DNA of 57,709 bases from positions 1-57,709 of IMG/VR virus record IMGVR_UViG_3300030107_000393; one strand, 5' to 3'. Numbering within the stretch: position 1 is the stretch's first letter; every line of letters begins with the position of its first letter. The DNA is from a virus. A model generated the notes under the pieces. The model searched no databases. It was not told where the DNA came from and saw nothing but the letters and a program-made list of their open reading frames with translations. Of the stretch, positions 21,586 through 44,726 are shown one piece after another. Both the position numbers and the translations under genes were made by a program.

Positions 21586-21911
21586 TTACCATTTTCTTTC
21601 GACCTTGTAAAAGCAGTTGTTCCCATAAAGGTAGCAACTATACCTAAGTTTGCTATAACATACGTTGAAAGTAAAGCAGTAACCATCTCAACTCTTGAGT
21701 CTGGTATAACAGGAGACATGACTAATACTATTAATATGATAGACGAGATAGACGATACCCAACACAGCATACGCTGTTGGTCTTGCATCTTGTCAGAGTT
21801 CTCAAGACGTATCATATGCTCAGACTGTGCTAGTTCTTTGTCTGTAACCACACCATCACCATCTAAATCAAACTGTTCGTATTGACTGCCTTTTTGTAGC
21901 TTCTTACTCAT
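21582..21911 (-). CDS. EF-hand protein with two transmembrane segments
   Basis: A 109-residue protein starting at ATG 21911 (ATGA overlap with the giant gene). Residues 15-26 (DLDGDGVVTDKE) form a complete calcium-binding EF-hand loop with ligands D15, D17, D19, T23 and E26. Two hydrophobic segments follow (WVSSISSIILIVLVMSPVI and VTALLSTYVIANLGIVATFM). This layout suggests a calcium-sensing holin or pinholin-like protein, or a membrane component of genome entry. Its place between the polyvalent protein and the lysis genes fits either. Confidence 0.75.
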   Translation of the reverse strand: MSKKLQKGSQYEQFDLDGDGVVTDKELAQSEHMIRLENSDKMQDQQRMLCWVSSISSIILIVLVMSPVIPDSRVEMVTALLSTYVIANLGIVATFMGTTAFTRSKENGK

Positions 21912-24900
21912 GCTCCCCAACCTGACTTCTGACCTTTAGAAACCCACTTAGCGTCTCCCCAACCAGTTTGAGCAGAGCCTTTTTTACCCTGTTCTCCTGC
22001 CATAGTATCAACAATACCTTCTCTAACATTTCTCATGCCACCAAGTATTGGTATTCTGGTTGCGAGTTCTCTCCATGCTGACCTTTCTTTAGCATTGCTG
22101 TTGTCTCCACCTACTATTGCGTCTTGTATTCCTGCTGCTCCTGTGATGGCTGCGTTTCCTAGACCATAAGAAGGACCGAGAAGTGAAGACCATATTCTGT
22201 TTTGACCATATGCACCATTGTCCATTTGAGAAGTAACTGAATGCATTACGTCTCCCAATAATCCAAAGCCACCCATTATCATCATACCTTCAAGATACCA
22301 ACCTAAGAAGTCGTTGTAATCTTCGCCATGTGTTTTTGAATCATAGCCAAGTGCTTTTGCTATGTTTCTTTTTCTTAGCTCTGGACTTGTACCATCTTCA
22401 CCACCACGAGACTGCACTATATCTTTCACAGATAGTGTCGCCATACCGAATGTAGGTCCGAGAAGTGCCATTGAAATCAATGGCTTTAGGTTTCCTTGAT
22501 TTGCTTCTTGCAGAACGTAGCCACCCATTCTTGACATCATAAGTGGGAAAGACTTCAACTGAAATACAAGCTGTCCTATAGGTGTCTGCGCCCATAATGG
22601 GACGTCATTTGGATTAGGTTGGAAAATACTTTCGTCTGCAAATTTAATGATAGCCATTCTTACTCTATCATCATTTAAAACATCTTCATCAGTTAAACTT
22701 GTATCTGCTTTGTTTTTCTTTGGTAAGTAATCTTCTAATCCATATCTTACTAAAAACCTATGTGCAGTTTTGTATTTTCCTGTTTGCTGTGAATATGGAA
22801 CGCCTACCTTGTGGTGTCTTGTTGCTTGTTGTTGCATAGCTTTTAATGCTTCTAATCCTGTAGCTCCTGCAATCTTTCTCTGCATGTCTGTCCAAGGAGT
22901 AAGTAATGTAGCACTAAAGAAAGCATGTGAAAGCTTATTGTCTGGCGCACCATACATATGAACCATTCTTTCATGCACAATGTTTTCCATTGCAACACCT
23001 ATATTATTAAGCATACGTCTGTAGTCTGGGTCAGTAGCCCATTTACCAACGCCACTAGCCCAACTTGAGAAAGAACCAGACCTTATAATTGGTAGCACTA
23101 TATCACCCAATGATGTGAGTGTGGTAAACCCAAGTAGCGTCACGTTGTTTACAGTTCTTATTAGCTTAGATGCTTCCATTAAAGACTTACTACCACTCAA
23201 TGGCTTCTTCATTGCTACTCTCATAGCATTGTCAATGAACTTTTCACTCTCGTATGCTATTGAGCCAGTTTGACCTTTGAAGTCATCTAACGCTCCTACG
23301 ATAGCATCAGCACGTCTTTTGTATGTAACGCTCATCTTAGGATATAAGTCATAGAGCATCTTCCTTGCTGCTGATGAGCCACTCTGTGCATGCACTCTAA
23401 TAAGTTCGTCTGCAAATTGTTTAGCACCAAACTCATTACCTTCAAACGGCATTCTAATTGTGTCAGTAAGAACTGATTCAACAATAGTTCCTTCTGCGTT
23501 CATGCCTCTAACATTCTTTTTAAATACTTTAGATGAAGAAAGTAGCTTAACAATACCATCTGCTCCTTGATTAGCAGTTAATAAGTAGTCACTGACAGCA
23601 TGTGTATTAACTCCCATCTTATCTGAATGCACCAATCTTCTTGTACTACCTTCAAGATACTTGACAAGTATTGCATCAAGGTCATTCTCTAAAAACTTTT
23701 CCATAGCATTCAGAGACTCTGGATAATCGCCAATGTTTAGAACTCTTGAGAAGTCTACGCTGTCATTGCCTGGGTTTTTAGAAAGACCACGTATGTCTTT
23801 GTGTGGCAGAAAGACGCCATCTTCTGCCGCATCTTCTGTTAATCTTAAATATATTTGCTCTGCAAATTTTTGTGCTTCTCCGTCTGCTGGCGTTTTACCT
23901 ATACTTGCCTGCTCCCTAACGTAATATTCATGCATTCCTTGTATAAACTCATCTTTATTCTTTCGAATAGCATTTTGATTCCATACTTGAGGAAGGTAAT
24001 TTTTTCTATATCCAACATGAAACCCAGATGCTTTTAATGCTCTACGTTCTGCATCAAATGTTTCTCTTATCTTATCAACCACAGCTTTTTCTTGTGGGTT
24101 AAGTGCTTGATATTGTCTGCTTTTTGTGTCACGTCTTAAAGCTCTTACTATTTTTCCATAGCTTTCTGGTTGACTTTGCATGACGCTACCTGTAGATTTT
24201 CTGAACCAACGTCTTAGGCTACCATCACTGTCTGGTAAGTCTCTCATTAAATTATTTATAGGCATGAACTTACCTGCAAACTTTTCAGATATTTCTGTAA
24301 AGTGGTTCTTGTACCAGTTGCCTAGCCATCTAGCACCTATTTTATTTAGTCTGTCTGATTGAGATTGAAACCATGTAGGAGCAGAAGAGTTTCTAATTAC
24401 TTCTACCTCTGCTTCGTTGTGTGGTCTTTTCTTAATCATTGAAGACGCAACACCTGTAAATGTTCTGGACTTTCCGTCTACTTCTAGCAGTTCTCCAAAC
24501 TTACCTGTAGGTATGTCGTCTACTTTTAGATTAGGTTCGTCTATCGCTGCCATAATAATAGAACCATTTGTACCTTCTGGTACACCACCACCTAATTCAA
24601 TATTAAATACTACACCAGATGTGCCGTCAAAATTCTTGGCTCTTACATGCTTTACTTGGTTAGGTTTAAATAAAACCACTCCTTCATGGTAAACTGCATT
24701 ACCTATTTTAATATCGTCAACGTCTGTAATTGTGTTGGTATGGCTTACAGTTAAACCATCATGTCCTAGTTCTTCAAACACATCTGTTAATGCATCTCTT
24801 GCTTCTGCTTTAGTAGATGAAAACTTATTCATCAACCTTCCAAAAGACTCATACAATTCAACGCCAGTTATAAACTCTAAGCCATAGAACTCTTCTTCCA

Positions 24901-27900
24901 TAGCTACGAAAGCATCTAATATGTCAGCGTCAGTTTCTCCTGCTTCTTTTAACTTAACGTAAATACCTTCTGATATTGTAGGAATAATCTTATCATCAAC
25001 AGCGTACCTTGTATTCTCTCTAAAATCTAATGGGTTTCTTAACTGAATGTAAGACGGCATTACATATGGCTCAAGAGTAATGCCTGACTTCTCAAGAATA
25101 TCAACCTTGCCTTTTTCAAGTGCAGTTAATTCTCTTAACTGGTCTTCTACAATAACTCTTTCTATAAAAGTTTGTATCTCAGTTGCATTGCCATTCTCAT
25201 CAGCGTCAGTAAACTTTGCATTCTGTCTTTTTAGTAATGATATTTTACCTCTGATTTGAGCTAATTCATAAGCAACATCTTCAAGCTCGTCTTTACCTTC
25301 GTCTGTTATTGGAAGCTTTTGAATCTGAAAATTAAGTGACTCTTTTGTTTGCTTTCTTGCGTAGCTTTCTTCAGCGACTACTGGATTTCTAGTTAGATAA
25401 ATACCTCTGCCATACAAAGAGTTTGATGAACTTAGGTTCATAACAGTACCAACGTCTGAACCATCAAGTGCTTTCTTATTTGGTGTGCCATGATAAAAGA
25501 TAACTGGTTCGCCAGTGCCAGTGTTATGACCAACTCCGTTTTTAGTGTAATCTACAATCTTTATTCTTTCTTCTGGCGTAGCATTTTTCCAAGCAGATTT
25601 GCCTGCGTCTGCTGCATGAGATGAATGAAACACGTCTTGGTCTTGAATTGGAAACTGTACGCCTCCTCTTCTATTTCTTACAAACATGTCTCCATACAAT
25701 CTTGTTAAGCCAAAGTAGCTTTTCTTAAAATCGTCATCTTTAACAAGACCATTCATAATGTATGCAACTTCTTCCATGTTTCTATGATAAATTTCAGATA
25801 AAGTGCCAAATACATCGCCTTCTGTATACCTTTGGTCTAGCTTAGAAGAAACACCTGTAAGCATTTCGTCTGCAAAATTCATAAGATGTCTTTCGTCTGC
25901 TGATGAGAATATTTTTTGAAAGTTACCTGCTAACCAATCAACCATTGCGTATTCATGTACAAGTTCGTCTGGCGCACCTTCTGATATAATGCTTGTGCCT
26001 CCACCTTTTTTATACGTATCCATAATTTTTTGCTGTTGCTTTGGTGATAATTGATTAAAAGCAAATGTAATTACATCTAATTCTTGTCTTGTCATAGATG
26101 CTCTTAAAGCCATGCCAGACAAGTATCTTACTGTCTCATCACCAGGCACTGAGTTAAGCTCTTGACCTATGCCTCTTGCAAATGTTCTAAGAATTGAAAA
26201 ATCACCACCTTGGAAGTCAGAAAATTCTTCTGTTCCTCTAGCTAAATAATCTCTACCTATTATTTTTGCTATGTCTCTTGATAATATTGGGTTAGCAAAC
26301 GTACCTTTTCTGGAAACTTTGCCTAATACATTTAACAATCTATATATAATTGTTCGAGACGCTAACTCTTTTTCTGGGTCACGATGTGTTACACGACTTA
26401 ATATATCCTTGACCATTGGTCTTGCATTGGCAGGTATGCCGTTAGACGTCTGTATTCCATTACTATCGTTTATTTCTATTTTAATCTTGTTATCTAACTT
26501 CTTAGACCTACCTATCATGCCAACATGCTTTGATGTATCCATGCCTTGCTTTTTAGCTTTTCTTTTGTCCATTCGTCTTTGCAATTCTCTTACTGCAAAG
26601 TCTCTTTCCTTTGTCATTCCCTTTGCGTTTGCATCATTCATAATGGCTTCAAGTTCAAACTTAGACATCTCAACATATTTACGTGGTATTGTCGTACCAA
26701 AAGATTTTTCTGGCATTGTAGAAGTTTTTAACTTCTTTATTATCTGTTCAGATATTTGTCTTCCATACTCTGTGCCAGCATGTTCACGTAACATCTTCTG
26801 TAAAACAGAAAGACTTTTTGTTGCTATCTCTCCTGCATTTCCTGTGTTTACTTTAGACTCTTTTCTTCTTGTCTTTTTATCTTTGAAATCTTTCTTTGCA
26901 GTTTCAATATCATTTTCAAAATCAGTTGCTTCTTTATTAAGTATTCTCTTTGTAGAATTAGATTTTTTACCTGCTCCTCTCTCAGATTTTTTCTTTGATA
27001 CTACTGCGTCTGGAGCTTCTGTATGAGTGCTACTCATAACTTTGTTTGTGTCTTCTACTTTTGCAAAGTTTCTTTCAAGGCTATCAAGAGCAAAATCAAA
27101 CATTCTGCTCATTGATGTTCTTTCTAAGTCTTTGATGTTTCCGTAATTATAACCAGTTACATTTCCGTCTGCGTCTCTTACTGCAAACCTATCTCCACCC
27201 TTGAAGTTCGGACCTTGATAGCCATGATGGAATAACTCTGTAAGATGCTCTGCAACAATCTCCATTTTAGCAGGGTCTATAATAGAAACTCCTGCGTTGC
27301 CTGCCTCAGTTGGGTTTCCTATTTCATTAGCTAACTCTACCCAATTTATATCTTCGCCTTTTGTATTTGCATTTTTAAATATTTCGTTTACGTCTTTAAG
27401 TCTTTCTTTAATAAGCCTTCTTGAATAAGGACTTAACATTTTAAAAGCACCAGACTTCTGTTTGTTGTAAACCATATTAGCCAATAGCCACATATCTTCT
27501 GTAAACATACTTACAAAAGTTTCTGGATTTGTAGTTCCTAATGGATATATCTCTGTCATCTCTTGCAATCTATGCAATACTTGGGATAGTTGCGTATGTT
27601 TTTCCAAAGCGGCTTTGCCTGCTGTAGTCTTTGGACTATGAGTACCCAAGCTTCTCTTTCCAATCTCTTCTTTGTTTGGAAGTATCTTTAAGAAAAATGG
27701 TTCTAATTCTGGGTCTATTGGTGTCTTGTAAAAAAATCTATCGAATGTTCCCTTGATATAACCAAGAGCTTTTTGCCAGAATGTTTCGTCTTTTATAACA
27801 AGCTTCTTGTCATTTCTTCCTGCCCAAGCGGCGAATTGATTTGCAAAGAACTCACCTGGCGCATCTAAAGAATTTGCAAAAGATGCAGTCTTTCCTTCTT

Positions 27901-30900
27901 CATACTCAGGTTTTAATGTGCTTGTAAAAGAGCCTTCGTCTAATTTATCTACGTTTAATTTACCACTTTCATCGTAGTATTTTGACATCTTTTCTAAAAA
28001 TTCAAGCCTATCTCTAGGTGTAAGAATGTTGTCAAAAGCCCAATGTGCTACTTCATGTAAAAGTTTTACATTCATTGGAGTTGCAAGACCAGACATTACG
28101 TCTTGTTTTGGCAGTATATTTACACCAGGTAGATTGTCAGTTGTAACATTTTCAGTTGAATAAAAGTTTGCTCTCATAGGAACACTAGAGCTTGACATTC
28201 TAGGACCTAATTCTGGATTACCACCCAGACGTTCAATGAAACGTCTAGCTGCAGCTATCTCTTCTGCGTCATAGCCATGAAATATTTTATCTAAATTGTT
28301 AAGTGTTTTTTGTCTGCTTGCTGTTGAGTCTATAAATCCTTCTGGTGGAAGCACTCTACTTTCCATATCCATAAGACCTTTATAAACTCTTATAACTTCT
28401 CTATGACCTTTAATTGTTTTAGACCATTTTGCTCCTTGAGTTGTAAAAAGTATTACATCTTTTATATCTTTATAACTAAGTTGAATATTTGCGCCACCTT
28501 TTGGAATTGTTGGTAGTTCAAATAATGGAGCATTGCCACTCATCGGAACTAAATCTTTTGCTATTCTATTATATGCTTCAAGTATTTCTACATCTTCTGG
28601 AGTAAGTGTTAGCCTTAATTCCAAAGCATCTTTAAGGTCTATAGGTTCTCCTACACCTGTAGCACCACCTGCTTCAACTCTACTGCCAGCAGACGGAGTG
28701 CCTTGTTCGTCTGGCAAGCTTTCGAATAATTCTCTTAACCTGCTTCCATATACTTTTGTATCAGCAGGAGCATACTTAACAGTCCAGTTGCTTGGGTCTG
28801 AGGCATCTCCACCCTTTTGACCAATGATTGCTTCAATACCTTTGCCGTCTGCAACTTGTTTTTTAGAAATAATCCTGACGTCATCAGGATTATTTTTGTT
28901 TTGTACAATAAGTCTTTTGTCACCTCTAGTTGGAGGAGAGACATCTGCGTCTGGAGTTGCTATTGTATTTTGATTTTGAGGTAAGTCACTAACCTCATTC
29001 TTTTGAATTGCTCGTAAGACATTTAATAATTCTCTTGCATCTCCACTTTCAATAGCTTCATCAAGAGCTTCTTGTGCATTTAATTTAGGAGGAAGTTTAT
29101 CATTTTTAGGTTGTTTTGTAGACTGACCGATTAGATTGGCTGTGTCTTCTCCGTCTGGAGCATTTAATCCTGTTCTTTTAAAAGCGGCTTCTTTGTTTAA
29201 GAATACTTTTCTTGTATATCCGTCTGCATATAACTTAGCACCTATTGGAGCTTTTACTTCTTTGCCAGTTTCATCTATTGCAGTTGTTCTTTGGTTTGCA
29301 TAAAAAGCTACAAGTCTGTTTGGCGAGTCTCTTCTTGCTTCTTTAGATTTAAGGTAAGCAGTTTCTCTATCACCATACTTTACATTATCTGCGTAGCCAG
29401 GTCTTCTGCCAATGGTGTCGCCTTTTTTAAGTATGCCTTGTATTTTGCCAGACTCTTCTCTGCCTGCTCCTACTCTTTGTCCTGCTCTTTCTATTGACTC
29501 GCCAGTAGTTCTTGCTTTGCCTTGTTTGTTAGCTCTTTGATTAAGAAAGGCAGTTCTTGCTTTTGCTATAGTTACGCCTTTGATTCTGAGCTTTGAGTCT
29601 TCTGGAGATTTAGCTTCTTGATTTCTAAACCTTTGTAAAATCTTTTTATATTGTCTGAACTCATCATCATCTAATTGATTGTCTAATCTCCATGTAGCAT
29701 CGTCAGATAACTTTAATGTGTCTTCGAAAGGTATATCATCATCAATCTTTATTGTATTCTTTTGCAAACCTTTTTCTGATTCAAAGGTTCTAGCCAAAGA
29801 TGCTCTTACGTTCTCGTCTACAGGCGAACCTGTAGCTCTTGTAAGTTCTTCTACAAGACTATTAAACTCTGTCTGCTCTGTGCTTTCTACATCAGGCTGT
29901 TCTTTTTTTGTTTTTCTTTTTCTGTAATTGACAACATTCTGCGCTCTTTTCATAGAGACTGTTGTCTCACCTTTTTTAACAGTTACTTCTTGTGGGTCTA
30001 TACCATTTGCTCTTAGATAGTCTGCGACCTCTTGTTCCATAGGAAGAGCAGCATCTGCTTCTTCTGCTTCAGAAATAACTTCGTCTGCTATTGTATCAGC
30101 ATTCGTCTGCGGCTGTGCCTGTTGTCCCTGTGCGTCTCCCTGTTGTCCCTGTAATTCTACGTCTCCTCGTGGTCTGCCTGCCTGACCAGTTGGCGTTACA
30201 GGAATAACATCGTCTGATACTAATTGCTCAACTTTCTTACCATAAGGATTTTCTCTTAGATATGCGAGTATTTGGTCAAGGTCGCCATCAAAGTCAGAAC
30301 CATCTTCGTTTCTAATATTGTCTACTATTCTGTCTCTTTCATTAAGCCAAGCACGATATTCTCTTGCTTTTTGTACGCCTCTAGGACCTTTAGCTTCTAA
30401 TTTTGATATTAATTCTTCTGTCTTAGGTTTAATAACTGCGTCATGCTGTTTAACTTCTTGTAATAAAATTAAGAATGTTTCTTCTTCGTCAGCTTCTGCA
30501 CCACTTGATTTAATGTTTTTAATTTTTTCTTGTTGTCTTTGAATCAGTTGGTCAATAGTTATCGGAGTTGGTACTGTTTCTTCTGCTGTTTCTGTAACAA
30601 CTTCGTCTGCCTGTTGTGGTGCGCCTAGTATGCCAGATACTTCTTGGTATCCTTTTAATGATTCTTCTGGTAAAGCGGCTATCTGTTCTCTTGTTAATCC
30701 TTTAGCCATTAAGTCACTGACTACGTTTCTGCCAGCACCTAATCCTGCCAATGCAGACGGAATACCTAATGCTCCACCTGCTACACCACCTATTGTAGCT
30801 CCTAATCCTGTAGCCAATCCAAGCTCGCCTTTACTAAATTCGTCTCTTAGACCAAGTTGTATATCTCTTGCCTGTTGGGACGCATTTACGATACCTTCTT

Positions 30901-31453
30901 GTGCGCCTGATATACCACCTTCATAAAGTGCGGCTTTTCCTGTACCACGTGCAACTGCTCCTAATGCAGTTTTGCCACCGATAAATGCGCCTTTTGCTGT
31001 ATTATATGCGGCTCCTACTGGTATTAGGTTGAGAGGGTCTGCTACTAATGCGCCTGCAATATCTGGGAGTGCTGTCGCAGCCCCTCTACCACCTTCCTGC
31101 CAGAACATAGGTAGTTGTTTCCAGACGGACTCAATCCTCTTTGCACGTTCTCTGGATTCAGTCCCCATTCCCCAAGGTTCAAATGCACCACCTATAGCAG
31201 AAACTGTATTAAGTTCTCTCCAAGTTGAGTCGCCATAGAAGGCATCTATAAGAACATCGTCTGTCCAATGTATAGGTCTGCCTTCTTTTTCTTCGTAGTA
31301 ATCTCTAAGGTCTTGAAGAAAGCGTGGGTCTTTAAGTATCTTCTGTGGATTTATATTTGAAGTATAGTCTGATTGTTCAGTTGAAACTGTAACATTATCA
31401 AGACTAAAATCTATGTTGTTAAAATAAGGTTGATTAAAAAATTTTTCTGCCAT
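21908..31453 (-). CDS. Giant polyvalent internal/ejection protein
   Basis: A 3181-residue protein, by far the largest gene. Two likely enzyme domains are visible. One is a metallopeptidase with HEVAHWAFD (H1133, E1134, H1137). The other is an ADP-ribosyltransferase-like fold with IFYHGTP (H1988) followed by YGRGIYLT and a YAR segment, as in polyvalent proteins. Long charged or helical linkers lie between. The C-terminal 350 residues are partly hydrophobic with Gly-rich helices (ISMALLGPTFGMATL, MMIMGGFGLLGDVM) that could insert in a membrane. Such proteins are packaged in the capsid and injected with DNA, acting against host defences. GGAGT precedes the ATG. Confidence 0.82.
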   Translation of the reverse strand: MAEKFFNQPYFNNIDFSLDNVTVSTEQSDYTSNINPQKILKDPRFLQDLRDYYEEKEGRPIHWTDDVLIDAFYGDSTWRELNTVSAIGGAFEPWGMGTESRERAKRIESVWKQLPMFWQEGGRGAATALPDIAGALVADPLNLIPVGAAYNTAKGAFIGGKTALGAVARGTGKAALYEGGISGAQEGIVNASQQARDIQLGLRDEFSKGELGLATGLGATIGGVAGGALGIPSALAGLGAGRNVVSDLMAKGLTREQIAALPEESLKGYQEVSGILGAPQQADEVVTETAEETVPTPITIDQLIQRQQEKIKNIKSSGAEADEEETFLILLQEVKQHDAVIKPKTEELISKLEAKGPRGVQKAREYRAWLNERDRIVDNIRNEDGSDFDGDLDQILAYLRENPYGKKVEQLVSDDVIPVTPTGQAGRPRGDVELQGQQGDAQGQQAQPQTNADTIADEVISEAEEADAALPMEQEVADYLRANGIDPQEVTVKKGETTVSMKRAQNVVNYRKRKTKKEQPDVESTEQTEFNSLVEELTRATGSPVDENVRASLARTFESEKGLQKNTIKIDDDIPFEDTLKLSDDATWRLDNQLDDDEFRQYKKILQRFRNQEAKSPEDSKLRIKGVTIAKARTAFLNQRANKQGKARTTGESIERAGQRVGAGREESGKIQGILKKGDTIGRRPGYADNVKYGDRETAYLKSKEARRDSPNRLVAFYANQRTTAIDETGKEVKAPIGAKLYADGYTRKVFLNKEAAFKRTGLNAPDGEDTANLIGQSTKQPKNDKLPPKLNAQEALDEAIESGDARELLNVLRAIQKNEVSDLPQNQNTIATPDADVSPPTRGDKRLIVQNKNNPDDVRIISKKQVADGKGIEAIIGQKGGDASDPSNWTVKYAPADTKVYGSRLRELFESLPDEQGTPSAGSRVEAGGATGVGEPIDLKDALELRLTLTPEDVEILEAYNRIAKDLVPMSGNAPLFELPTIPKGGANIQLSYKDIKDVILFTTQGAKWSKTIKGHREVIRVYKGLMDMESRVLPPEGFIDSTASRQKTLNNLDKIFHGYDAEEIAAARRFIERLGGNPELGPRMSSSSVPMRANFYSTENVTTDNLPGVNILPKQDVMSGLATPMNVKLLHEVAHWAFDNILTPRDRLEFLEKMSKYYDESGKLNVDKLDEGSFTSTLKPEYEEGKTASFANSLDAPGEFFANQFAAWAGRNDKKLVIKDETFWQKALGYIKGTFDRFFYKTPIDPELEPFFLKILPNKEEIGKRSLGTHSPKTTAGKAALEKHTQLSQVLHRLQEMTEIYPLGTTNPETFVSMFTEDMWLLANMVYNKQKSGAFKMLSPYSRRLIKERLKDVNEIFKNANTKGEDINWVELANEIGNPTEAGNAGVSIIDPAKMEIVAEHLTELFHHGYQGPNFKGGDRFAVRDADGNVTGYNYGNIKDLERTSMSRMFDFALDSLERNFAKVEDTNKVMSSTHTEAPDAVVSKKKSERGAGKKSNSTKRILNKEATDFENDIETAKKDFKDKKTRRKESKVNTGNAGEIATKSLSVLQKMLREHAGTEYGRQISEQIIKKLKTSTMPEKSFGTTIPRKYVEMSKFELEAIMNDANAKGMTKERDFAVRELQRRMDKRKAKKQGMDTSKHVGMIGRSKKLDNKIKIEINDSNGIQTSNGIPANARPMVKDILSRVTHRDPEKELASRTIIYRLLNVLGKVSRKGTFANPILSRDIAKIIGRDYLARGTEEFSDFQGGDFSILRTFARGIGQELNSVPGDETVRYLSGMALRASMTRQELDVITFAFNQLSPKQQQKIMDTYKKGGGTSIISEGAPDELVHEYAMVDWLAGNFQKIFSSADERHLMNFADEMLTGVSSKLDQRYTEGDVFGTLSEIYHRNMEEVAYIMNGLVKDDDFKKSYFGLTRLYGDMFVRNRRGGVQFPIQDQDVFHSSHAADAGKSAWKNATPEERIKIVDYTKNGVGHNTGTGEPVIFYHGTPNKKALDGSDVGTVMNLSSSNSLYGRGIYLTRNPVVAEESYARKQTKESLNFQIQKLPITDEGKDELEDVAYELAQIRGKISLLKRQNAKFTDADENGNATEIQTFIERVIVEDQLRELTALEKGKVDILEKSGITLEPYVMPSYIQLRNPLDFRENTRYAVDDKIIPTISEGIYVKLKEAGETDADILDAFVAMEEEFYGLEFITGVELYESFGRLMNKFSSTKAEARDALTDVFEELGHDGLTVSHTNTITDVDDIKIGNAVYHEGVVLFKPNQVKHVRAKNFDGTSGVVFNIELGGGVPEGTNGSIIMAAIDEPNLKVDDIPTGKFGELLEVDGKSRTFTGVASSMIKKRPHNEAEVEVIRNSSAPTWFQSQSDRLNKIGARWLGNWYKNHFTEISEKFAGKFMPINNLMRDLPDSDGSLRRWFRKSTGSVMQSQPESYGKIVRALRRDTKSRQYQALNPQEKAVVDKIRETFDAERRALKASGFHVGYRKNYLPQVWNQNAIRKNKDEFIQGMHEYYVREQASIGKTPADGEAQKFAEQIYLRLTEDAAEDGVFLPHKDIRGLSKNPGNDSVDFSRVLNIGDYPESLNAMEKFLENDLDAILVKYLEGSTRRLVHSDKMGVNTHAVSDYLLTANQGADGIVKLLSSSKVFKKNVRGMNAEGTIVESVLTDTIRMPFEGNEFGAKQFADELIRVHAQSGSSAARKMLYDLYPKMSVTYKRRADAIVGALDDFKGQTGSIAYESEKFIDNAMRVAMKKPLSGSKSLMEASKLIRTVNNVTLLGFTTLTSLGDIVLPIIRSGSFSSWASGVGKWATDPDYRRMLNNIGVAMENIVHERMVHMYGAPDNKLSHAFFSATLLTPWTDMQRKIAGATGLEALKAMQQQATRHHKVGVPYSQQTGKYKTAHRFLVRYGLEDYLPKKNKADTSLTDEDVLNDDRVRMAIIKFADESIFQPNPNDVPLWAQTPIGQLVFQLKSFPLMMSRMGGYVLQEANQGNLKPLISMALLGPTFGMATLSVKDIVQSRGGEDGTSPELRKRNIAKALGYDSKTHGEDYNDFLGWYLEGMMIMGGFGLLGDVMHSVTSQMDNGAYGQNRIWSSLLGPSYGLGNAAITGAAGIQDAIVGGDNSNAKERSAWRELATRIPILGGMRNVREGIVDTMAGEQGKKGSAQTGWGDAKWVSKGQKSGWGA
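28867..28895. other. Perfect 12-bp hairpin inside the giant gene
   Basis: AAATAATCCTGA (28867-28878) pairs with TCAGGATTATTT (28884-28895) around a 5-base loop. It lies in the charged linker region and encodes NNPDDVRII on the minus strand. A stem this long in an AT-rich coding stretch is notable; it may just be chance. Confidence 0.6.
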
Positions 31454-41882: not shown

Positions 41883-43073
41883 TTAGGCTGTGCCTGCCCA
41901 GTTCTTAACATAAGCATGAACTTTATCTTGTAAGAGTTCTAATCCACACTCAGTTAAATATTCACTCTTTTGTGAATCGGCATCTACTGCTTGTCGATTC
42001 TCTAAGAGTTGGGTATCACGACCTTCTAGGTAACGATAAACAAGATATGGGAAATCAACAATAACCATTGCAGTTTTCATATGAGCTAACTGACGGAACT
42101 GTGGGTGTAAGTGTACCATCAAGTCACCTGCGAAAGTGCTGTATTGTGTTAGGTTGATGCCATAGCTACCTTCTATCGCTGTTGGTTGCCAACGTGCTTT
42201 ACCTATTTTTTGTAGTAAAGCTGCACATGTTTCACCGACAAAAGCTATCTTTTGCTTTGAACCATACTTAAATACAGTAGAAATCAAAAGCTTATCTAAG
42301 CCTTCTTCAGTCATATTGTTTGCAGAACTACCACCATAAGTGCCGCTACTTGTTGCCAAGTCTACCACGTTAGTTAGTGAGTTAGTTAAACCACCAGTAT
42401 ATCTAGTTGGACTTGCACTTGAACCACTTGCTTCGTGCTTGTTGCCGAAGAACATAGCTCTTTCAATGTCAGACATATGTAATTTTAATGCCTTAGTCAT
42501 TGCTTCGTCCATCTTATCACCAGTTCTTAGATAGGTGCTTGCTAAAGTATTAGATACTTGGAAAGCAGTTCTAAAAATCTGAGTGAAGTTGTTGGTTACT
42601 GTAGCATCAAATGTGATTGCTGTTGGTGATGTTGCACCTTCAGCTGCGGCATATCCTGCCACAAACAGTACAGCATTATCTGCAATTTGATGTGAAGTAC
42701 CACCAATGTTACGAGTAACTGCAAGGGTTGTACCTGTTGTGTCAGCAGTTGCCTGCATAACTTCACCAGTAGTTTGGTTAATAACGATTGCACCTTTAAT
42801 TGCAAACTTATTGTCGTCTGCTGCATCTATTGTTATTGATGCTGTAGACGTTGAGTTTACTGCTCCATTAACAGTCATAGTTCTGTCAGGCAACTCGTCT
42901 CTGAAGTTCTTGTACTCAGGGTCGTCTGTTGGCTCTGATGAACCCATTGCTAACATAGCGTTTAATGGTGCGTTACCATTTGGTTCTAAGAGAGTAAATA
43001 ACTCTCTGTAGTTTTTAGGACGGAAGTCCGAACTGAACTCACCTGTCCCTCTCATGCCTTGAATAGGGGCCAT
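41883..43073 (-). CDS. Major capsid protein (SU10/DUF5309-like)
   Basis: A 396-residue protein with the HK97-type capsid pattern of the SU10 (DUF5309) family: an N-terminal GTGEFSSDFRPKNYRELFTLLEPN, a beta-rich insertion at about 75-130, and a C-terminal part with KYGSKQKIAFVGETCAALLQ, WGLN-type HLHPQFRQLAHMK and the ECGLELLQDKVHAYVKNW end. It forms the icosahedral shell after assembly on the scaffold encoded just upstream. A promoter-like sequence and two terminators bracket it, suggesting high, separate expression. GGAGAAACTAAA precedes the ATG. Confidence 0.88.
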   Translation of the reverse strand: MAPIQGMRGTGEFSSDFRPKNYRELFTLLEPNGNAPLNAMLAMGSSEPTDDPEYKNFRDELPDRTMTVNGAVNSTSTASITIDAADDNKFAIKGAIVINQTTGEVMQATADTTGTTLAVTRNIGGTSHQIADNAVLFVAGYAAAEGATSPTAITFDATVTNNFTQIFRTAFQVSNTLASTYLRTGDKMDEAMTKALKLHMSDIERAMFFGNKHEASGSSASPTRYTGGLTNSLTNVVDLATSSGTYGGSSANNMTEEGLDKLLISTVFKYGSKQKIAFVGETCAALLQKIGKARWQPTAIEGSYGINLTQYSTFAGDLMVHLHPQFRQLAHMKTAMVIVDFPYLVYRYLEGRDTQLLENRQAVDADSQKSEYLTECGLELLQDKVHAYVKNWAGTA

Positions 43074-43147
43074 TTTAGTTTCTCCTTAAAAAACAAATTA
43101 AAAATTTTAAGCGAGTTTCACGGAAATGCCATCGTTAATCTCATATC

Positions 43148-43162
43148 TAGCCGTAGCGAGAT
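43148..43162 (-). promoter_or_regulatory. UACG-tetraloop hairpin in the capsid leader
   Basis: On the minus strand, TATCT-C-GC-TACG-GC-T-AGATA: a 2-bp GC inner stem closing a cUACGg loop, a C/T mismatch, and a 5-bp outer stem. It shares TCGCTACGGCTA with the scaffold leader at 44394-44405. Confidence 0.65.
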
Positions 43163-43168
43163 AATTTA

Positions 43169-43197
43169 TTATTATATAATTATTATGCGTCTGTCTA
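43169..43197 (-). promoter_or_regulatory. Candidate promoter of the capsid gene
   Basis: Minus strand TAGACA (43197-43192) with a 17-base spacer to TAATAA (43174-43169), or 15 bases to a perfect TATAAT (43176-43171). It lies between the scaffold terminator and the capsid start. Tentative. Confidence 0.35.
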
Positions 43198-43203
43198 CCC
43201 TTA

Positions 43204-43233
43204 TAAAAAAAAGACCCTCTAAAAAGAGGGTCT
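43204..43233 (-). terminator. Terminator between scaffold and capsid genes
   Basis: AGACCCTCT and AGAGGGTCT form a perfect 9-bp stem with a 4-base loop, followed on the minus strand by eight T residues. A clear rho-independent terminator 49 bases past the scaffold gene. Confidence 0.85.
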
Positions 43234-43281
43234 AGTTCAAGAGGAAATATTAGTGTATTGCTAGGGGTGCTTTTATGCTTT

Positions 43282-44376
43282 CTAACTATATCCTTTCTTA
43301 GACATTACTTGATTTGTAAATCTATCAAAGGTGTTAGGAGCATCTCCTTGTGGGCTTGCCATGTCTCCTGCATTAGCAGTTTGACCTACGCTACCAGTAA
43401 ACGCTTGTCTTTTGCCCATGATTTCTCTAAGTCTAGCCATCTCTGGCGATGACTTGTTGTTTTTGTAATCTGTCATTACTTTGATTGTAAGCTGTGGGTC
43501 TGCAAAGTCTTCCATTGTATATCCACGTTCTGCTGCAAACATCTGAAACTCTTGTGCGTCTCCGTCTGCCAGACCTAAAGCTTGTTGAACTCTGTCTAAA
43601 TTATTTGCGATTGTTTGTTTTGCTGCTGTTATTTGTGCATTCTCACCAGTTTGGAAACCTGCTTTCGCTGCGTCTGCCATACCTGCACTTTGTGCTACGA
43701 CCTGACGTAGCATGTTTTTCATCATTGCAAGTTCTTGTTGCATAGCACCAACATTACTGTTTCCCTGTGCAGACATATTCATCATGTCTCTAAAACCAGG
43801 TGGTAATGTAACAGCGTTGTCTTCTTCCCATTTCTTGAGAGACGCTTCCATATCGCCTGATTTTAATGCTGTGTCTTTCTCATAAACGCCTGGCTTGTCG
43901 CCTTGAGTGTTACCCATTGTAGGATTTGACTCTCCTGCTTTTGAAATATTTGCCAGTTGTTCTGCTATTTGTTTGGTTGATACACCAGGATTGGCTCTCA
44001 TGTATTGGTCAATTACGTCTGTAATTGGTTTATATACTGCATTCTTATGGTTGAGTGCCGAATACCTTTCGAATGTAGATTTAATTTGATTAGGCGTAAG
44101 TTCTCTTTTTTTCTTGTTGCCTTCTTTGTCTGTTTCACCAAAGTCTATTTCGTAGACTACAGCTTCTGCGACCATCTTATCTCCTTCAGTATCAGGCGAA
44201 CCTTTAGAAGCAGCTTGCTCGGTGGCAGTATCTTTTGGTTTTGGTGCTTGTTGTTGTGTTGCAGGAGGAGCAGGTTGTTGTGTTTGCGCCTGTTGCGTTG
44301 GAACGCCCAACTGGTTTGAAGCAATTCTACTAATTGCGTCTGCTGCCATTTGAGGGTCTTGCTTTTGTATAGCCAT
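43282..44376 (-). CDS. Scaffolding protein
   Basis: A 364-residue acidic, Gln/Pro-rich protein with a disordered N-terminal third (QQAQTQQPAPPATQQQAPKPK), a central helical region, and a C-terminal part ending in a conserved-looking basic helix (DRFTNQVMSKKGYS), where scaffolds bind the capsid. It precedes the major capsid gene, the usual position. It should drive procapsid assembly and leave before packaging. The upstream leader carries a UACG-tetraloop hairpin and an AAAGG site near the ATG. Confidence 0.75.
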   Translation of the reverse strand: MAIQKQDPQMAADAISRIASNQLGVPTQQAQTQQPAPPATQQQAPKPKDTATEQAASKGSPDTEGDKMVAEAVVYEIDFGETDKEGNKKKRELTPNQIKSTFERYSALNHKNAVYKPITDVIDQYMRANPGVSTKQIAEQLANISKAGESNPTMGNTQGDKPGVYEKDTALKSGDMEASLKKWEEDNAVTLPPGFRDMMNMSAQGNSNVGAMQQELAMMKNMLRQVVAQSAGMADAAKAGFQTGENAQITAAKQTIANNLDRVQQALGLADGDAQEFQMFAAERGYTMEDFADPQLTIKVMTDYKNNKSSPEMARLREIMGKRQAFTGSVGQTANAGDMASPQGDAPNTFDRFTNQVMSKKGYS

Positions 44377-44391
44377 TTTGTTTTTTCCTTT

Positions 44392-44409
44392 CTTAGCCGT
44401 AGCGAAGAT
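44392..44409 (-). promoter_or_regulatory. UACG-tetraloop hairpin in the scaffold leader
   Basis: On the minus strand, TCTT-C-GC-TACG-GC-T-AAGA: the same loop, inner stem and C/T mismatch as at 43148-43162, with a 4-bp outer stem. It ends just before the AAGAAAGG ribosome site. Two outer-stem pairs differ from the capsid copy and remain paired. Confidence 0.65.
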
Positions 44410-44726
44410 TAAGTTTTGTACTTTTGATAACCTGTTACATCTGTTTCAGTTATATCTATATTACTCTTTTTTTTGTTTTCGTCTACCTTTTCTAACGCAA
44501 TTTCATTCTCATAGCGTATTTTTAAACGATTGGGCATTTCGAGTAACTGTTTTCCTGCCCATATTGCACCTCGTCTAAAGTTAATTTCTTCCAAATCCAT
44601 CTTAGGACTTTCAGCGATACTCATGGCAGACGTTACTATTTCTTCTTCCATGATTTCTACTATTAACTTCCAACTATTAGATTCTAATAACTTTGAAAGA
44701 TTTTGTAACTTTTGCTTTGGTGTCAA
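44409..44726 (-). CDS. Small helical protein upstream of the scaffold
   Basis: A 105-residue charged helical protein (KLQNLSKLLESNSWKLIVEIMEEEIVTSAMSIAES...) with a TTG start at 44726; a GGGAAAATAG-type region lies upstream. I recall similar proteins of about this size before scaffold genes in marine podoviruses, without known function. It may assist head assembly. Confidence 0.65.
   Translation of the reverse strand: MTPKQKLQNLSKLLESNSWKLIVEIMEEEIVTSAMSIAESPKMDLEEINFRRGAIWAGKQLLEMPNRLKIRYENEIALEKVDENKKKSNIDITETDVTGYQKYKT

Follow-up and report, generated by a model that had tools for sequence, protein, structure and literature searches.

A shared RNA hairpin in the scaffold and capsid leaders of CRP-810-type marine phages

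Small RNA hairpins with the same apical sequence precede both the scaffold and the capsid genes of a marine phage, raising the question of whether they represent a real RNA element and, if so, what such an element might do in front of these two genes. The window, i.e. the whole stretch of DNA analyzed here, is the 57,709-nucleotide virus record IMGVR_UViG_3300030107_000393. Its major capsid protein (MCP) is an SU10-type capsid protein (SU10_MCP, PF17236) and is 81% identical over 99% to that of Roseobacter phage CRP-810. Together with the genome size of about 57.7 kb and the presence of an integrase, a primase-polymerase-like gene, a Sak4-like ATPase and a RusA-like resolvase, this places it among the CRP-810-type phages, a temperate, globally distributed marine family (PMC11288001). 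By far the largest gene of the window is a 3181-aa ORF (21908-31453, minus strand), possibly a polyvalent injected protein. The gene preceding the MCP has no Pfam or PHROG match, but its position directly before the MCP and a weak Foldseek match to annotated viral scaffolding proteins (E 4.9e-4) identify it as the scaffold. The features of the locus are as follows:

41883-43073, minus strand: major capsid protein gene (396 aa)
43113-43142, minus strand: second hairpin of the capsid leader, P2 (GAG..ACG-AUGGCAUUUC-CGU..CUC)
43144-43163, minus strand: capsid-leader hairpin P1, UAUCU-C-GC-UACG-GC-U-AGAUA, with 5 outer pairs
43171-43199, minus strand: capsid promoter-like element, with GGTAGAC (43193-43199) and TATAAT (43171-43176); a GGGACGA-type box is seen in most relatives
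43205-43232, minus strand: intrinsic-terminator-like hairpin and U tract between the scaffold and capsid genes
43282-44376, minus strand: scaffold gene (364 aa)
44386-44390, minus strand: scaffold Shine-Dalgarno core (AGGAA)
44391-44408, minus strand: scaffold-leader hairpin, UCUU-C-GC-UACG-GC-U-AAGA, with 4 outer pairs, directly abutting the Shine-Dalgarno
44409-44726, minus strand: conserved small gene (about 105 aa) of unknown function directly upstream of the scaffold
44458-44487, minus strand: scaffold promoter-like element, GGTAGAC..TAATAT

We first asked whether the two hairpins exist as described. Local folding with RNAfold returns exactly the capsid and scaffold hairpins (-6.6 and -5.1 kcal/mol, z -2.2 and -2.75). 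The sequence-only reading had noted that the outer stems of the two copies differ at two positions that remain paired; counting outward from the mismatch, pairs 2, 3 and 4 differ between the copies, three rather than two, and all of them stay paired. The full hairpin, defined as an outer stem of at least 4 pairs, a C.Y mismatch and GC-YNMG-GC, occurs exactly twice in the 57.7 kb, with 0.045 copies expected from order-1 Markov sequences. Likewise, a covariance model recovers the same two at 23.1 (scaffold) and 22.5 (capsid) bits, with the next match at 10.1 bits. Two paralogous copies, which that reading had taken as strong evidence, would alone be weak proof of covariation; it is the 130+ homologous leaders that make it decisive.

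To obtain these leaders, relatives were collected by MCP protein rather than by the hairpin and deduplicated to 136 loci with 52-100% MCP identity; 80 loci fetched with a UACG-containing pattern were left out of all loop counts. The hairpin with a Y..G loop is present in 127 of 136 capsid leaders and in 108 of 124 testable scaffold leaders. In at least three further scaffold cases (loci L290, L293 and L298, the L numbers denoting individual relatives) it is present, but a small ORF has been inserted between the hairpins with their Shine-Dalgarno and the scaffold gene, so that the hairpins now abut that ORF, while several others are truncated or mis-started. Of the nine capsid negatives, five (L025, L168, L170, L201 and L205) still show GC/GC with a C.C mismatch but a loop of another class. 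Among these, L025, L168 and L170 are sister lineages with UUAC, UCGC and UAAC loops, and L025 and L168 have no scaffold hairpin, pointing to a possible change of binder specificity. In the capsid leaders of L034 and L035, hairpin P1 is missing and the P2-like element appears twice. Presence in the two leaders is not perfectly linked, as L177, L205 and L210 have a scaffold but no capsid YNMG hairpin. In distant isolates with 25-33% MCP identity (PaP2, Kuura, Mel-JY34, VS-ABTNL-3, Tiera and a Desulfofustis phage) no hairpin was found, so the element is not general to SU10-type capsids.

The architecture of the hairpin is constant, whereas the sequence of its outer stem is free. The loops in capsid leaders are UACG 94, CACG 14, UUCG 5, UAAG 4, CUCG 3, CGAG 3, CAAG 2, UGCG 1 and UGUG 1, and those in scaffold leaders are UACG 61, UUCG 15, CAAG 11, UAAG 7, UAUG 4, CACG 4, CGAG 4, CUCG 1 and UUAG 1. 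Thus, 230 of 235 are YNMG (126/127 and 104/108) and the other five are YNUG, with none having G in position 3 and none being GNRA. Below the G-C/C-G cap lies a C.C or C.U mismatch (with three U.Y exceptions in the capsid), which shows 22 (capsid) and 9 (scaffold) changes on the 3' side and never becomes a pair. The outer stem uses all pair types. As the alignment used for the covariance model was preselected for pairing, the covariation claim rests instead on a tree built from the MCP, with substitutions redistributed over branches as the null. On this tree the first two capsid pairs show 15 and 11 double changes that keep pairing (null 0.5 and 0.9), and the first three scaffold pairs show 6, 13 and 13 (null 0.2, 0.1 and 0.6). 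None of 300 simulations reached these numbers, and most control pairs shifted by one position stay near their null, apart from one scaffold shift with 3 against 0.3. In no genome do the scaffold and capsid hairpins share the same 3-nt arm (0/105). A protein site at the DNA level was rejected because the loops follow the RNA class YNMG on the sense strand only and the stems covary; constraint from protein coding was rejected because copies lie in intergenic sequence and in coding sequence in different reading frames. That the hairpin is an RNA element under selection is near certain. As for chance or recent duplication of a short sequence, without function, the two copies in the window do share a 12-mer, but the recurrence in 127/136 and 108/124 relatives, the tree-aware covariation and the 0.045 copies expected per genome refute it.

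We next examined where the element occurs. In 27 complete or near-complete viral records plus CRP-810, model hits with E below about 0.06 fall, as judged by position, at the scaffold and MCP leaders and nowhere else, with one record, that of L168, having none. Broad DNA scans for the hairpin followed by GGAG gave 57 places with a correctly spaced ORF, of which 34 precede the scaffold family and the other 23 look like chance matches, mostly in coding sequence. In the scaffold leader the stem ends 0-2 nt before the Shine-Dalgarno in 104/108 and 11-16 nt before the ATG in 107/108. Relatives below about 74% MCP identity often carry two tandem copies (48 of 136 scaffold leaders checked, here including the pattern-fetched loci), with the upstream copy sometimes inside the preceding gene. 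In the window lineage an insertion lengthened the distance from the promoter box to the scaffold hairpin to 84 nt, against 54 in near relatives, while the spacing to the ATG was unchanged: the scaffold hairpin follows the ribosome-binding site and not the promoter. In contrast, the capsid hairpin lies 83-134 nt before the ATG and is locked to the promoter box, 42-56 nt downstream of it. It is followed by P2, whose inner stem arms match across relatives better than shuffled partners (3.48 v 2.98; best of 2000 shuffles 3.38). P2 was not predicted by single-sequence folding of the window, and RNAalifold on the whole leader finds only P1 because P2 is misaligned by MAFFT; P2 was tested separately.

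Both leaders also share an upstream box, GGACGA (GGTAGAC in the window lineage), which in capsid leaders lies 19 or 20 nt before a good -10 hexamer in 98/124. The box-plus-hexamer pattern occurs about 4-10 times per genome, mostly on one strand and mostly above the reversed control. This is probably a phage-specific late promoter, although no sigma factor or RNA polymerase was recognized among the window proteins examined. It is a separate finding, and shows that the hairpin is not simply a mark of all late promoters. In some lineages (L305, L316, L261, L080 and L079) the box of the capsid leader is fused into an intrinsic-terminator-like hairpin (GCGGGACGA..GTCCCGC-T7), so that one sequence would end the scaffold transcript and start the capsid one.

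The sequence-only reading had proposed a real RNA element, perhaps a binding site for a regulator of head proteins or an mRNA-stability hairpin, and this proposal is supported, though sequence does not decide between its two functions. A tetraloop class held constant above a conserved non-pairing mismatch favors recognition of a shape, and the geometry at the scaffold Shine-Dalgarno favors a translational operator. Our preferred, but still tentative, explanation is that the hairpin is a shape-recognized RNA operator on the scaffold and capsid mRNAs. In this model, a phage protein present in all lineages would bind the YNMG loop and the pyrimidine mismatch below it, blocking the Shine-Dalgarno on the scaffold mRNA, and on the capsid mRNA would bind near the 5' end and act at a distance, together with P2. 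The likely purpose is feedback that keeps scaffold and capsid synthesis in proportion to head assembly. Protein binding, repression and the identity of the binder are inferences. The scaffold protein is the first candidate binder, but this assignment is considerably more doubtful than the operator itself; the structural model of the scaffold (mean pLDDT 74, pTM 0.35) shows no RNA-binding fold and no significant PDB match. A second candidate is the small protein encoded upstream of the scaffold, which is conserved next to it in most relatives, bears a FRRGSIWAAKQLLELP motif and has no Pfam or PHROG match. Furthermore, the capsid hairpin is too far from the ATG for a simple block, so that one mechanism must serve two geometries, and in many relatives both hairpins lie about 10 nt after the predicted transcript start, as would also be expected of a 5' stabilizer.

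Of the alternatives, the one that survives best, though unlikely, is a protein-independent stability element, in which a very stable UNCG-type hairpin near the 5' end protects two abundant late mRNAs from 5'-end-dependent decay and keeps the Shine-Dalgarno open. Predicted transcript starts lie roughly 8 nt (capsid) and 13 nt (scaffold, where a promoter box is seen) before the hairpin, assuming a start 7 nt after the -10; UACG and UUCG loops are probably extra stable, and the hairpin is the local minimum-energy fold. However, stability alone does not explain a mismatch that is never repaired, the use of less stable YNMG loops (CAAG, CGAG and UAAG) with no GNRA at all, the restriction to two genes although several late promoters exist, or the scaffold hairpins of distant relatives embedded in the upstream coding region with no promoter box nearby.

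Less likely still are two further possibilities, which we rank equally. One is a transcription-coupled element like HK022 put or lambda nut, in which nascent hairpins modify RNA polymerase to prevent pausing or termination in the head and tail operon. The hairpins are close to promoters and are paired with P2 in the capsid leader or in tandem before the scaffold, and put RNAs are two stem-loops near promoters (PMC9378689). Against this, a terminator-like T5+ run lies between the two genes, downstream of the scaffold hairpin, in 58/111 relatives, the fixed 0-2 nt distance to the Shine-Dalgarno has no role in such a model, most relatives closer to the window have a single scaffold hairpin, and no boxA-like element was recognized by eye. 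The other is that the hairpin is the target of a host factor, such as a ribosomal protein, RNase or other RNA-binding protein, serving translation enhancement or mRNA processing. Its position at the ribosome entry site is compatible with this, but the phages are reported to infect diverse bacteria (Roseobacter, SAR11 and Sphingomonadaceae; PMC11288001), yet the recognition core is constant, and no other phage gene uses it in the complete relatives.

The hairpin has no counterpart in Rfam: there was no gathering-level match in the window or in 13 relative loci, and permissive scans of the window leaders and of locus L041 gave only sub-threshold matches, none over the YNMG hairpins. No RNA element or promoter is described for CRP-810 in the papers found, including the main text of the study describing the family (PMC11288001). 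Phage mRNA operators are themselves known; what differs here is a hairpin with this core shared by scaffold and capsid. The best precedent for its geometry is the T4 gp43 operator, a 16-18 nt hairpin with a short loop, which like that of gp32 lies upstream of or overlaps the ribosome-binding site and is bound by the gene's own product to repress translation (PMC3014915). Those operators serve replication proteins, whereas here one hairpin core, with a YNMG loop and a conserved pyrimidine mismatch, serves two head genes, and no repressor is identified. For logic, the precedent is phage P22, in which unassembled scaffold appears to lower its own synthesis after transcription, tying scaffold supply to head assembly; P22 is unrelated, and its coat protein is apparently not regulated in this way. 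For loop tolerance, the precedent is domain d of the enterovirus oriL, recognized by protein 3C, whose apical loops vary within YNMG/YNUG while the shape is kept (PMC5633025); this is a replication element of RNA viruses, and no homology is claimed. HK022 put is likewise a structured nascent RNA close to a phage promoter, but it acts on RNA polymerase, comprises two larger stem-loops and has no Shine-Dalgarno coupling.

A more far-reaching reading, which we consider unlikely but not excluded, is that a single hairpin code, a YNMG loop over an obligatory pyrimidine mismatch, coordinates translation of scaffold and capsid across a globally distributed tailed-phage family, with the scaffold protein as an assembly-sensing repressor, making this the RNA operator of head-assembly feedback in a DNA phage. 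More generally, these observations supply a well-supported RNA family that Rfam lacks, and a natural panel of YNMG loop variants with a fixed mismatch for the study of shape-based RNA recognition. Tailed phages must make scaffold and capsid protein in the right proportion, and how this is set is poorly understood beyond P22. In this abundant marine family, which has a cultured member in CRP-810, a compact and strongly selected RNA element marks these two genes, so that head-assembly feedback becomes directly testable.
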